A program made the position numbers and the translations under genes. This document shows, piece after piece, positions 46,851 to 61,685 of a stretch of 64,000 nt of DNA. The DNA comes from Streptomonospora mangrovi (GTDB lineage Bacteria > Actinomycetota > Actinomycetes > Streptosporangiales > Streptosporangiaceae), in the NCBI RefSeq assembly GCF_027604915.1, contig NZ_JAJAQC010000036.1, positions 1 to 64,000 of the forward strand, read 5' to 3'. Position 1 is the stretch's first letter, and every line of letters begins with the position of its first letter. A model generated the notes under the pieces. It saw only the letters and a program-made list of their open reading frames with translations, was not told the origin of the DNA and searched no databases.

Positions 46851-48242
<1,392 letters not shown>

Positions 48243-48349
48243 GGTGTGCACCACCCATCGTGTGAGGTGTCGGTTTGCGGGGGTCGGGCCGGCGCGGCGG
48301 GGGCCCCCGGGGGGGCCGGAGGCGCCGGCGGGGGCGCCGCCCCGACCGT

Positions 48350-48383
48350 GCCCGGCCGCCGCGGGGGGAGGCGGCGGCCGGGC
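48350..48383 (-). terminator. intercistronic hairpin between the two shell genes
   Basis: A perfect 13-bp stem (48350-48362 with 48371-48383) with an 8-base loop lies 20 bases after the upstream shell gene's stop and about 110 bases before the next start. It could terminate part of the transcripts or protect the 3' end of the first message, setting the ratio of the two shell proteins. Confidence 0.65.
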
Positions 48384-48403
48384 GCCGGCCGGGGGGCCGG
48401 GGG

Positions 48404-49804
<1,401 letters not shown>

Positions 49805-50587
49805 GGTGTGTTCCACCCATTCCTTTTTGCTGCGGGTTGGTGCTGTGGCGGTCGTGTTCCGATCGGTGTTCGGCCCCCACCGGAGGGTTCAGGGTGCACG
49901 GGCGACCGATTCCACCCGGATTGCGGAACCAGACGCATTCTGACCCAGTCCGCTATCTATTTCCGTTTTCTCCACCCGGCCGAACGGACCCCCGAAAAGG
50001 CGGCGCCTTTCCCGGGAGACCCGCGAGAGGCCGCGTGTTCACCTGCGTCACGTGCACGCCTGGTCGGCCCCCACGTACCCGTGGATCACTCCCGCATGCC
50101 GCGCGGCCACCGACTTTCCCGGCGCACACGCATCCACTTTCCATAGGACCCCAATTCGGACCGGAAGCAACGGCACGCGGGAAAATCGGGAAAAGAATCG
50201 CCAACCTGCGCGGAAGCGGTTTCGGACCCGGTTGCGGACCGTCTTCAATGCCGCACCCGGAAACACGGGGAATCGCGCGGAATGCGGCGCCCGGGCCTCG
50301 TTAAGGTCATGCGGAATGCGCCGTAAAAGCACAGCGGAAATCGGCGACCCCGCTATTCGCGGATCCCTTGATAAACGTCTAAAAACGGTAAAACAGACAA
50401 GAGAGGCGGCGGGAACACCCGGGGGCACCCGGGGCCGCCGGCGCCGGGAAGCGGCGCGGCGGGACGCACCGGCGCGAAAGCCTCGCGCCGGCACCGGTCC
50501 GACCCCGGCCCCGGCCGCGCACGGCGGCGGGCGGCGGCGAGGCGCCCCGCCCCGCCGCCGCCCGCCGCTGCCCGGACCGGCGCCCGG
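49805..50587. other. long leader/promoter region of the encapsulin operon
   Basis: 783 bases without a credible gene. GC is visibly lower between 49900 and 50400 than in the genes on either side. The operon promoter must lie here, but no clear -35/-10 pair stands out. ORFs on both strands lack family motifs and overlap each other. Bases 50400-50587 are Arg/Pro-coding, GC-rich 3' flank of the transketolase gene. Confidence 0.45.
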
Positions 50588-54651: not shown

Positions 54652-54923
54652 GGGTGGCCGCGCCGGGCGGCGACACGCCCGGAACCGGGAATTCCAGGTC
54701 GGCGCGACGGGAGCTCGCCCGGGGCGGGCGCAGGGGCCGCCGCCGAGGGTATCGCCGCAGGCCGGGCGGGGTCCGGCAGGGGATGCGCGGATGCGGCCGG
54801 CCGGGGGCGCGCGCCGCCGGGCGGCCACCGGTTGTCCACAGATCCGCCGCAACGGGTCGCGCAGCCACCAGGGACTGTGCCAGCATGTGTCCGTCCGATC
54901 ACCCAAAGTGAAAGGTGTGGCAC

Positions 54924-55022
54924 ATGAGCGAGCTTCCCGGCGTCCTCGACCTCCTCCTGAGCGACGAGTCCATGTGGATCGAGGGCTGGCGCCTCGACCT
55001 CCTCGAGGGCGACCAGGGCTGA
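54924..55022 (+). CDS. 32-residue peptide gene, first of a tandem pair
   Basis: ATG 54924, with AAAGG upstream, encodes MSELPGVLDLLL followed by SDESMWIEGWRLDLLEGDQG and TGA. The C-terminal 20 residues are the same as in the second peptide except Ile for Val. The peptide is acidic (three Asp, four Glu, one Arg), hydrophobic in its N-terminal half and has two Trp. It has no Cys or Lys. The design, a variable N-part and a fixed C-part, could be a signalling peptide or precursor of a modified peptide. No recognised maturation enzyme is adjacent; the nearest candidate is the DUF574 methyltransferase on the opposite strand. Confidence 0.6.
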   Translation: MSELPGVLDLLLSDESMWIEGWRLDLLEGDQG

Positions 55023-55038
55023 GCCCCCGCCGTCACGC

Positions 55039-55071
55039 GCGACGGCCCTCCGGACCCTTCCGGAGGGTCGC
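55039..55071 (+). terminator. hairpin after peptide gene 1
   Basis: CCCTCCGG (55046-55053) with CCGGAGGG (55060-55067) and outer GCGA/TCGC. It starts 16 bases after the stop and lies between the two peptide genes. Confidence 0.65.
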
Positions 55072-55107
55072 CCGCCGTCCGTCACCTGACCAGAAAGGCA
55101 GAACTCG

Positions 55108-55212
55108 ATGTATGAGCTTCCCGGCGGCCTCCTCGGCGGCCTCCTGATGAGCGACGAGTCCATGTGGGTCGAGGGCTGGCGCCTCGACCTCCTGGAGGGC
55201 GACCAGGGCTGA
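55108..55212 (+). CDS. 34-residue peptide gene, second of a tandem pair
   Basis: ATG 55108, with GAAAGG upstream, encodes MYELPGGLLGGLLM followed by SDESMWVEGWRLDLLEGDQG and TGA. It keeps xELPG at positions 2-6 and the 20-residue end of peptide 1; the middle is Gly/Leu-rich and longer by two residues. Arrangement, charge and composition are as in peptide 1. The nucleotide changes between the copies are largely synonymous in the shared part, which argues that the peptides are made. Function unknown. Confidence 0.6.
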   Translation: MYELPGGLLGGLLMSDESMWVEGWRLDLLEGDQG

Positions 55213-55229
55213 GCCCGCGTCCCCGCTCC

Positions 55230-55262
55230 GCGACGGCCCTCCGGGACACCCCGGAGGGTCGC
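55230..55262 (+). terminator. hairpin after peptide gene 2
   Basis: CCCTCCGGG (55237-55245) with CCCGGAGGG (55250-55258), a 4-base loop and outer GCGA/TCGC. Same structure as after peptide gene 1, with a longer stem. Confidence 0.7.
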
Positions 55263-55341
55263 CCCCTGCCGGGGGCACCGCAGCGGCGGTCGGGGAAGCC
55301 GCCGCTGGGCCGCGCGCGGCGCGGCGGTGCGGGCCGGCCGC

Positions 55342-56172
55342 TCAGGGCTTGCGGGCCACCGCGCCGAACTGCGCCACCGGGCTCGGCTCGTCCTCGGCGG
55401 GGTCCGGCCGCCACAGCGCGCACGACACCACGCCCGGGTCCACCACCTCCAGGCCCGCCAGCAGCCGCTCCAGCCCGGCGGCGTCGCGCAGCCGCAGGGG
55501 CGTGGAGCCTCCGGCGTTCCACAGCCGCGCGGCCTCCTCCATCGCGGCGGTGTGCACCTCGTTGGTGGAGTGCGCGATGACGATGTGGCTGCCGCCGGGC
55601 ACGGCGGCCAGTAGGCGCTGGACGATCGCGGCGGCCTGGCCGTCGTCGGGGACGAACTCCAGGATGCCCAGCAGCAGGACCGCCACCGGGCGGTCGAGGT
55701 CGAGGGTGGCGGCGGCCGCCGCCAGCACCCCCTCGGGATCGCGCAGGTCGGCGTCGACGTAGTCGGTGCGGACCGAGCCGTCGCCCACCAGCAGCGCGCG
55801 GGCGTGGGCCAGCACCACCGGGTCGTTGTCGACGTAGACCACCCGCGACCCGGGGGCGACCTCCTGGACGATCTCGTGGGTGTTGCCGGCGGCGGGGATC
55901 CCGGTGCCGATGTCGAGGAACTGCCGCATCCCGGCCTGGCCCGCCAGGTAGCGCACCGCGCGCCCGAGGAACTCCCGGTCGGCGCGGGCGTTGGCCACCA
56001 TGTCGGGGAAGGCGGCGAGGATCCGGTCGCCGGTCTCGCGGTCGGCCGCGAAGTTGTCCTGGCCGCCCAGCCAGTAGTCCCAGACACGTGCGGGATGGGC
56101 CACGCTGGAGTCGATCTCGGGCGGCGGGGAGCTGGGGGCCCGCACGCGCATCCACTCCGGCGACTGGTTCAT
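55342..56172 (-). CDS. SAM-dependent methyltransferase, DUF574 (Methyltransf_19) family
   Basis: 276 residues. Starts with the family's SSVAHPARVWDYWLGGQDNFAADRE (in part: ARVWDYWLGGQDNF), SAM motif FLDIGTGIPAAGNTHEIV, acidic-loop VVYVDNDPVVLAHARALL, and later LLGILEFVPD. This actinomycete-specific family has many paralogues per genome and few known substrates. It converges on the tandem peptide genes, ending 79 bp from the second hairpin, so a link to the peptides is possible but unproven. Confidence 0.92.
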   Translation of the reverse strand: MNQSPEWMRVRAPSSPPPEIDSSVAHPARVWDYWLGGQDNFAADRETGDRILAAFPDMVANARADREFLGRAVRYLAGQAGMRQFLDIGTGIPAAGNTHEIVQEVAPGSRVVYVDNDPVVLAHARALLVGDGSVRTDYVDADLRDPEGVLAAAAATLDLDRPVAVLLLGILEFVPDDGQAAAIVQRLLAAVPGGSHIVIAHSTNEVHTAAMEEAARLWNAGGSTPLRLRDAAGLERLLAGLEVVDPGVVSCALWRPDPAEDEPSPVAQFGAVARKP

Positions 56173-59629: not shown

Positions 59630-59697
59630 CATGTAAAACAAACCTGACATGGCGAAGGTAAAACGTATCCGACACGATGTCAATTATCTTTTACATG
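59630..59697. promoter_or_regulatory. paired TGTAAAA elements between divergent operons
   Basis: CATGTAAAA (59630-59638) and TTTTACATG (59689-59697) are perfect 9-bp inverted arms 50 bp apart, with another GTAAAAC near 59658. The stretch is the most AT-rich in the window and probably contains the promoter of the DUF2178-XRE operon and its autoregulatory sites. Confidence 0.6.
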
Positions 59698-59804
59698 CCC
59701 CTTTCCTTGCCCGCAGCACACGGACGACCGCCAAACGTCACCGGCGAGCTGTACCGTGGCTCCAACGTCCAGCCCTCCACCTCACCGCGGAAGGAACAGA
59801 CGCT

Positions 59805-61685
59805 GTGGGTTCGCGCTGCCTCTACCACGGATCCGCCGACGAGATCGCCGCCCTCCTCCCTGACGACGAACTCTTCAAGAGGATGTGGAAGAACTTCGTG
59901 GACCTCTGCGGCCACGCCCCCGAAGGCAGCGAGTACAAGTCCTGGCGCAGCAGCATCCCCACGGTCATCCACCGCCTGGTCGCGGCCGGGCTGGGTGGTG
60001 TGCACGTCCTGCTTGAGCTGAAGACCCCGATCACCGACATCCGGATGGACGTCGTGCTCGTCGGATCACGCCCCGACGACGGCGGCATGGCGGTGATGGT
60101 CGTCGAGAACAAGCAGTGGTCGGAGGTGTGGCCGGAGCCGGACTCCGAGCTTGTCCGCTGGCGAAGGGGCGCCATGGAGAAAGGCGGCATCCTCCATCCC
60201 GTCAACCAGGTCTGGGGCTACCGGCAGGTACTGATCGACTTCATCCCCCTCCTCCGCGAAGCGAAGGTCACCTGCCTCGTCAACATGCACAACGCCGAGA
60301 GACACGTACTGAAGGCCATCGCCCCGACCGCCCAAGGTCTTAGCGCGGTCAAGGAGATGAGCGGCTACGCCCGCATGTACGGCCTCGGTGAGGACGTCCT
60401 CTTCGAGCGGTTCCTGCGCGCGCACCTGTCGGCCGAGAAAGCGGACGCCTACGCCCGGGACCTGCTGGAGGCCCCGGTTATTCCCACCGAGAGCCTGATG
60501 ATCACGGTCAGCGAGGGGATCGGCAAGCGCACGGTGTTCACCCTGCTCGACGAGCAGCGGCTGGCCTACGACTACGTCAGGTCCAGGATCACGAAGAGCA
60601 AGAAGGGCGACCGCAAGGAGGTCGTCATCATCGTGGGCGGACCGGGGACGGGCAAGAGCGTGATCGCCCTGGAACTGCTCCGGCAGTCCAGCCGACAGGG
60701 GCTGCGAGCGGTCCACGCCACCGGAAGCAAGGCCTTCACCACGACCCTGCGCACGAACGTGGGCGCGGCGGACAACCGCGCCGGCGCGGTCTTCCGGTAC
60801 TTCAACAACTTCTCCGCCACCGCGCCCAACGACCTCGACGTCCTTGTCGCGGACGAGGCCCACCGCCTGCGCGCCGACCTCCGCTCAGACCGGGGGCCCA
60901 GGGCCTCGCAGGTCGCGGAACTCATCAGGGCGGCACGTGTCCCCGTCTTCCTACTGGACGACCACCAGAAGGTCCGCCCGAGCGAGGCGGGATCGGTCGA
61001 ACTCATCACCGAGACCGCGCGCGAACTGGGGGCCGGCGTCCACACGATCGACCTGCGGCACGAGTTCCGCTGCGGAGGTTCGCCGGAGTTCCTCGCCTGG
61101 GTCGAACGCCTGCTGGAACTCAAGCCCAAACATCCCCTGGCGCGGTGGCGGCAACCGGACGACTTCTCACTGCACGTCGCCCGGACCCCTGCCGAGATGG
61201 AGGACTTTCTGGCGGCACGCATCCGCGAGGGGCACACCGCCCGGATCGCGGCCGGCTTCTGCTGGAGGTGGGGAGCCCCGCGCGCCGACGGCAGCCTGCC
61301 CGTCGACGTGAAGATCGGCGACTGGCACCGCCCCTGGAACTCCAGGGCCACGCGTCGGGTCAACGGGGTTCCCACGTCGTCGCTGTGGGCCACCGAGGAA
61401 GGCGGGTTCGGCCAGATCGGATGCATCTACTCGGCCCAAGGCTTCGAGTACGACTACGCCGGCGTGATCTTCGGGCCCGATCTCGTGTGGACCGCGCAGG
61501 GCTGGCGGGCGAACCCGAGGGCGAACCGGGACGGCCAGGTCAACGACGCACCGGATTTCAATCGCCTCGTCCGCAACATCTACCGCGTCCTGGCCACGCG
61601 CGGAATGCGGGGAGCCGTCCTGTACTCAACGGACGCGACCACGAACCGGTTCTTCGCGGAAGAGCTGGGCGTCCCCTACCTGTAG
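59805..61685 (+). CDS. nuclease-helicase protein (N-terminal PD-(D/E)xK-like region plus DUF2075 ATPase)
   Basis: 626 residues from GTG 59805 (GGAAGGA upstream). Residues 60-110 look like a restriction-type nuclease core: D82 in IRMDVVLVG and E101-N-K103 in VMVVENK. Residues 270-620 are a DUF2075 superfamily 1 ATPase: Walker A GGPGTGKS (278-285), Walker B VLVADEAHRL (DEAH 350-353), RHEFRCGGS and IGCIYSAQGFEYDYAGVIFG near the end. Relatives sit in phage-defence regions. GC is lower than in the housekeeping genes. The MazG-like gene follows after 76 bp. Confidence 0.88.
   Translation: MGSRCLYHGSADEIAALLPDDELFKRMWKNFVDLCGHAPEGSEYKSWRSSIPTVIHRLVAAGLGGVHVLLELKTPITDIRMDVVLVGSRPDDGGMAVMVVENKQWSEVWPEPDSELVRWRRGAMEKGGILHPVNQVWGYRQVLIDFIPLLREAKVTCLVNMHNAERHVLKAIAPTAQGLSAVKEMSGYARMYGLGEDVLFERFLRAHLSAEKADAYARDLLEAPVIPTESLMITVSEGIGKRTVFTLLDEQRLAYDYVRSRITKSKKGDRKEVVIIVGGPGTGKSVIALELLRQSSRQGLRAVHATGSKAFTTTLRTNVGAADNRAGAVFRYFNNFSATAPNDLDVLVADEAHRLRADLRSDRGPRASQVAELIRAARVPVFLLDDHQKVRPSEAGSVELITETARELGAGVHTIDLRHEFRCGGSPEFLAWVERLLELKPKHPLARWRQPDDFSLHVARTPAEMEDFLAARIREGHTARIAAGFCWRWGAPRADGSLPVDVKIGDWHRPWNSRATRRVNGVPTSSLWATEEGGFGQIGCIYSAQGFEYDYAGVIFGPDLVWTAQGWRANPRANRDGQVNDAPDFNRLVRNIYRVLATRGMRGAVLYSTDATTNRFFAEELGVPYL

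Follow-up and report, generated by a model that had tools for sequence, protein, structure and literature searches.

A family of short actinomycete peptides paired with a dedicated prolyl oligopeptidase, with the layout of processed precursors

The locus studied here raises the question of whether two very short tandem open reading frames (ORFs) are genes at all and, if they are, what becomes of their products. They lie in a stretch of 64,000 nucleotides from Streptomonospora mangrovi, called the window here, and an earlier note made from the sequence alone had described two tandem ORFs of 32 and 34 residues, with a ribosome site and a separate hairpin for each. All of these elements are present (Table 1). 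Both ORFs fall within an 83-nt direct repeat (93% identity, 190 nt spacing), their ribosome sites are purine-rich (GAAAGG for gene 1 and AGAAAGG for gene 2), and each gene has its own strong hairpin directly past the stop codon. By sequence comparison, the block ahead of gene 1 is nearly identical to the upstream sequence of the sister species. A third peptide copy (MYELPGLIFVGWAFIADEVLHVEGWRGELLEGDLG) is found on another contig (C8) of the same genome, and the sister species carries orthologues of all three copies. The second tandem copy of this sister species (genome G003) retains its ribosome site and has ATA where the ATG should be; either this is an unusual start codon or the copy is decaying.

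Table 1. Coordinates of the peptide genes, their signals and other features mentioned in the text (window positions unless another locus is named)
Feature	Position	Strand	Description	Basis
Peptide gene 1	54924-55022	+	MSELPGVLDLLLSDESMWIEGWRLDLLEGDQG; 32 aa	translation
Parts of peptide 1			leader MSELP / core GVLDLLLS / follower DESMWIEGWRLDLLEGDQG; putative core limits	family alignment, parsing
Peptide gene 2	55108-55212	+	MYELPGGLLGGLLMSDESMWVEGWRLDLLEGDQG; 34 aa	translation
Parts of peptide 2			leader MYELP / core GGLLGGLLMS / follower DESMWVEGWRLDLLEGDQG; putative core limits	family alignment, parsing
Probable promoter and ribosome site of gene 1	54871-54915	+	block GGGACTGTGCCAGCATGTGTCCGTCCGAT-ACCCAAAGTGAAAGG	
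Ribosome site of gene 2	55093-55107	+	AGAAAGG	sequence
Hairpin 3' of gene 1	55038-55073	+	CGGCCCTCCGGA/TCCGGAGGGTCG; terminator-like without T run; z -2.2	
Hairpin 3' of gene 2	55221-55274	+	terminator-like; z -2.8	
S-adenosyl methyltransferase	55342-56172	-	PF04672	
Type 2A encapsulin shell protein	46851-49880	-	SrpI-like, with cyclic-nucleotide-binding domain	
Schlafen group 3 protein	59649-61685	+	DNA/RNA helicase domain	
Second tandem copy, sister species G003	L055 9759-9857	-	ATA in place of ATG	
Dedicated POP of G215	L064 6631-9921	+	ORF of ~1096 aa	
Dedicated POP of Actinomadura macra	L052 10132-12365	+	frameshifted, split over two frames	

We ran a profile search on 299 genomes of the window's GTDB family, counting matches at E < 1e-4, and members were found in 15 of them. 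Class-wide (395 genomes) and phylum-wide (396 genomes) samples gave no peptide beyond the same GTDB family. In total the family comprises 22 peptides of about 32 residues from 17 genomes, all in one actinomycete family, with members in Nocardiopsis, Marinactinospora, Allonocardiopsis, Actinomadura and Streptosporangium. The occurrence is patchy, as the peptide is found in 2 of 6 species of the window's genus and in 6 of 65 species of the genus of G221, home of the Actinomadura loci. Among named genomes a six-row alignment found no relatives and a 20-row alignment found ten loci, one of which is spurious: this locus, in a Chloroflexi MAG, sits inside a larger reading frame and was rejected as a chance match. 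Plasmid records gave no DNA match, and the peptide matched no family in Pfam or NCBIfam. In the literature searched, the family is undescribed and no bacterial prolyl oligopeptidase (POP) macrocyclase appears, an absence that is weak evidence.

The two ORFs are more than chance, because the same frame recurs in 22 distinct peptides, the pooled pN/pS across five sister pairs is 0.46 and the profile E-values inside one genome reach 1e-15 to 1e-20. Such a pN/pS value fits moderate constraint on a translated sequence. Both ORFs of the window are thus genuine genes, and the peptide family to which they belong is undescribed.

For the neighbours, we predicted genes up to 20 kb around every peptide locus and clustered them. 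The single shared cluster, found at 17 of 20 loci, is an S9A POP; it is the one gene that recurs in different genera, and the tested flanking genes belong to unrelated families. The earlier note had suggested asking whether the peptide recurs with a fixed neighbour, and the clustering identified this POP as that neighbour. With such a constant neighbour and no Pfam or NCBIfam match, the claim of an undescribed precursor peptide family was borne out. The POP lies downstream of the peptide gene at 16 loci and upstream at one (G215), where its ORF, ahead of the peptide gene, carries a long low-complexity insert. The POP begins 66-106 nt past the peptide stop at most loci; the distance is larger in Allonocardiopsis (211 nt) and in the window's genus (416-451 nt). 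In Actinomadura macra the split of the POP reflects either decay or a sequencing error.

Three loci are orphans with no POP beside them, namely the window pair, its orthologous pair and the second Allonocardiopsis copy, and every genome with an orphan locus has a peptide-POP pair elsewhere. In the window's genome the third copy adjoins a dedicated POP on contig C8, while an ordinary POP is encoded on contig C7. The dedicated partner is invisible in the window because the window pair is an orphan set. Beside this pair, in both species having it, stands a gene for an S-adenosyl methyltransferase, which may be linked to the peptides. Three sister species share the conserved upstream phosphoribosyltransferase and have neither the pair nor the methyltransferase within 1.5 kb, the flanks being short. 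Elsewhere the window encodes a type 2A encapsulin shell protein and a protein with a Schlafen group 3 helicase domain (Table 1).

A hairpin follows the stop codon in nearly all relatives. For most peptide genes it lies 20-70 nt past the stop and is GC-rich, with similar stems (GAGGGCTTCCCG...CGGGGAGCCCTC and variants) and mostly no T run. Where the POP is downstream, such hairpins stand between peptide and POP, possibly as terminators with read-through. A short ORF and then a hairpin ahead of the POP at 16 loci would also be the picture given by a cis-acting leader peptide, whose attenuator hairpin controls the downstream POP. However, the window pair, its sister-species orthologues and one Allonocardiopsis copy have no downstream POP, and the amino acids are conserved over the whole length, not as a regulatory codon run. 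Because the POP is upstream at the G215 locus, with the peptide after it, the peptide is not such a leader. The orphan copies and the reversed locus largely refute this explanation, which we consider very improbable.

Nearly every one of the 299 family genomes has an ordinary POP, so far as searched, and POPs with at least 58% identity to the query (at least 702 bits) occur among them in peptide-bearing genomes only, the next best hit, at 564 bits, being an ordinary POP. This search, which scored only three candidates per genome, did not pick up the dedicated POPs that G215 and G219 have according to neighbour clustering and the active-site profile. The same gap is seen in 390 class genomes (796 vs 635 bits). 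The pairing was rechecked with a profile of the POP active-site segment: all four peptide genomes scored at least 204 bits, none of 68 peptide-negative genomes exceeded 166 bits, and in the positive genomes no ordinary POP scored above 167 bits. The dedicated POP was seen in no peptide-lacking genome sampled, a statement that is firm for the genomes of the active-site profile only.

The dedicated POPs form one clade (branch support 100/100) and contain the domains PF02897 and PF00326. All intact members have the nucleophile motif G[AST]SHSG, while the 32 control POPs, none of which has a peptide nearby, have GGSNGG or GESNGG. The catalytic triad is complete in all intact members, with Ser in G[AST]SHSG, Asp in DxRV and His in VGHG, and alignment to 3iuj, a bacterial enzyme of solved structure, matches the Trp, Arg and YGGF positions that should surround a proline substrate. 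The closest solved chains are bacterial prolyl endopeptidases (355 bits to 3iuj vs 206 bits to PCY1 and 171 bits to the fungal 5n4f/5n4c group). Judged by sequence, the dedicated POPs are of bacterial descent and closest to proteolytic bacterial POPs. The Trp three residues before the catalytic His of GmPOPB is replaced by Asp or Gly. The enzyme is probably cytoplasmic, as its N-terminus has no obvious signal peptide by eye. The partner is thus an active-looking, Pro-specific enzyme by its triad.

To describe the peptides, we cut all 22 after Pro5 and ahead of the invariant Asp-Glu. Each one then consists of a leader of 5 residues (MxELP) with an invariant Pro5, a hypervariable and mostly hydrophobic core of 7-11 residues, and an acidic follower of exactly 19 residues with a net charge of -4 to -7. 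In the leader only position 2 varies freely, the remainder being near-invariant (E3 and L4 nearly so across the family). The core starts with Gly in 16 of 22 peptides and ends with Ala in 14, Ser in 7 and Gly in 1. Residues fixed in all 22 are M1, P5, D14, E15, E20, W22, R23, L26 and G29 of the family alignment. The C-terminal half, called invariant in the earlier note, is so between the two window copies, but across the family only scattered residues are fixed; this constant end is better taken for the follower, and the residues between Pro5 and Asp14, which precede it, for the core. Differences within the five sister pairs are concentrated in the core (15 of 44 sites vs 11 of 120 elsewhere; Fisher p = 4e-4). 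Ends of constant length around a middle that varies in both length and sequence are what a processed precursor has, and at the level of sequence this layout matches the POP-processed cyclic-peptide precursors of fungi and plants.

The chemistry suggested earlier fared less well. The window copies do contain Trp, Ser, Asp and Glu, from which Trp cross-links or ester and amide macrocycles through Ser, Asp or Glu had been proposed. Nevertheless the Trp pair is not conserved, since W18, the first Trp, occurs in 3 of 22 peptides, and at position 16 most members have Val or Ile where the window copies have Ser. The neighbours tested included no ATP-grasp, P450 or lanthipeptide synthetase gene. A generic radical SAM gene does lie beside the third copy, an adjacency seen in the window's own genus only. 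Cys is absent from all 22 peptides, in line with the earlier exclusion of lanthionine chemistry. On residues and neighbours, lanthionine, graspetide and Trp-cross-link chemistry were rejected, and we give a cross-linked or side-chain-macrocyclised precursor hardly any probability, the least of the alternatives considered.

The product could instead be the N-terminal MxELP (fMet-x-Glu-Leu-Pro) or a linear, Gly-initiated signal of about 26-30 residues, with the core serving as a spacer. The near-invariant leader would agree with this, as would the prediction for the peptide alone, in which one helix at modest confidence (pLDDT 78, pTM 0.36) covers residues 6-30 and starts right after Pro5. A spacer, however, need not keep a hydrophobic make-up and a small last residue, and no conserved exporter, receptor, immunity or tailoring gene was found linked to the peptide loci. 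A signal of either kind appears improbable to us.

The reading that we favour, and hold to be reasonably likely, is a bacterial precursor peptide processed by its dedicated POP. With similar, reasonable likelihood a short peptide and a cytoplasmic S9A POP dedicated to it make up a two-gene system, to which the window pair adds extra copies without a POP. Translation would give MxELP-core-follower, and the POP would recognise the acidic follower. A first cut after Pro5 would remove MxELP, and this is the step that we consider most probable. A second cut would fall at the boundary between a small residue (Ala, Ser or Gly) and Asp-Glu, and release of the core there is somewhat short of an even prospect. 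The freed hydrophobic core would stay linear or, in the manner of fungal POPB and plant PCY1, be joined head to tail through transpeptidation; such macrocyclisation is possible but less likely than release of the core. Since leader and follower are shared, the POP of contig C8 would also serve the orphan peptides of the window, judging from these sequences.

The second boundary, Ala, Ser or Gly in place of Pro, speaks against this reading, as do the closeness of the dedicated POPs to proteolytic bacterial enzymes, their lack of the GmPOPB Trp and the lack of a conserved exporter, immunity or tailoring gene at the loci. POPs cleave after Pro and less efficiently after Ala (PMC5648786), so the Ala found in most members fits this preference, while Ser and Gly fit less well. 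The strongest rival gives the peptide a regulatory role, as an inhibitor or activator that docks on the dedicated POP via the conserved acidic tail, with orphan copies tuning POP activity. It shares the constant pairing with the POP and is in keeping with the tail being the most constant part of the peptide. Such POP tails bind GmPOPB in the sub- to low-micromolar range (PMC5648786), and with its own hairpin at each copy the peptide may be produced in larger amounts than the POP. But a regulator leaves the fixed-length leader and follower around a variable middle unexplained, as well as the invariant Pro at the P1 site, and the partner looks active and Pro-specific. We regard this role as unlikely. 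An AlphaFold model was made of a read-through chain from a natural locus with peptide, one stop and POP in one frame; the POP is well predicted and the peptide is disordered (pLDDT ~22-31) and not placed on it, so the model would count as docking evidence neither way.

The precursor reading can be compared with known systems. POPB acts on a 35-residue leader-core-linker-tail substrate, cutting the leader after Pro and then cyclising the core, with the tail contributing to binding (PMC5648786). The MSDIN/POPB system of fungal cycloamanides and amatoxins resembles the present one in its precursor of about 35 residues, its short leader with a terminal Pro, its hypervariable hydrophobic core and conserved follower, and its dedicated POP paralogue besides the ordinary POP (PMC6514808, PMC5648786). 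In contrast, the leader here has 5 residues vs 10 in MSDIN, Pro flanks the core on both sides there and only as Pro5 here, where the core ends in Ala, Ser or Gly, and the POP here has the SHSG motif, bacterial descent and no histidine-loop Trp as in GmPOPB; for the peptides here, cyclisation is a tentative prediction. Segetalin cores have Gly first and Ala last. Orbitides (presegetalin, with PCY1) likewise have a 32-residue precursor, a short hydrophobic core and an S9A enzyme that recognises the follower (PMC6514808). They belong to a plant lineage, however, with longer leaders taken off by another protease, and PCY1 is a distant relative of the dedicated POP (206 bits).

Among bacterial RiPP routes, class III lanthipeptides also use a dedicated POP, FlaP, which cuts after Pro in the leader (PMC10885120), whereas here the POP is alone with a peptide lacking Cys, and no lanthipeptide synthetase was found at the loci. 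The fungal borosin POP OphP has a small P1 pocket and performs head-to-tail closure of hydrophobic peptides that carry a small residue at P1 (PMC12235650). Unlike the system here, it takes N-methylated cores and ignores the follower, which here is the most constant part, and the fused methyltransferase is absent here. By analogy, the peptide-POP system would work like POPB and PCY1 without being a member of either, because the second Pro is missing, the POPs are of bacterial descent, the histidine-loop Trp of GmPOPB is absent and no cyclic product is known.

Mushrooms and plants are known to cyclise peptides by means of POPs. The peptides described here might be the first bacterial head-to-tail cyclic peptide family that needs nothing but a POP for its making. 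This minimal system of two genes would have arisen independently of fungal POPB and plant PCY1, and a single POP would both cleave behind Pro5 and close the hydrophobic rings of 7-11 residues; we put this forward as a speculative proposal, more doubtful than probable. The prediction of a POP precursor is sharp, with two cut sites and exact masses. If true, the pairing of a bacterial peptide with a dedicated POP would show that the same logic arose convergently from an ordinary POP, would provide a compact cytoplasmic enzyme for producing hydrophobic cyclic peptides, and would explain a set of small genes overlooked by annotation.
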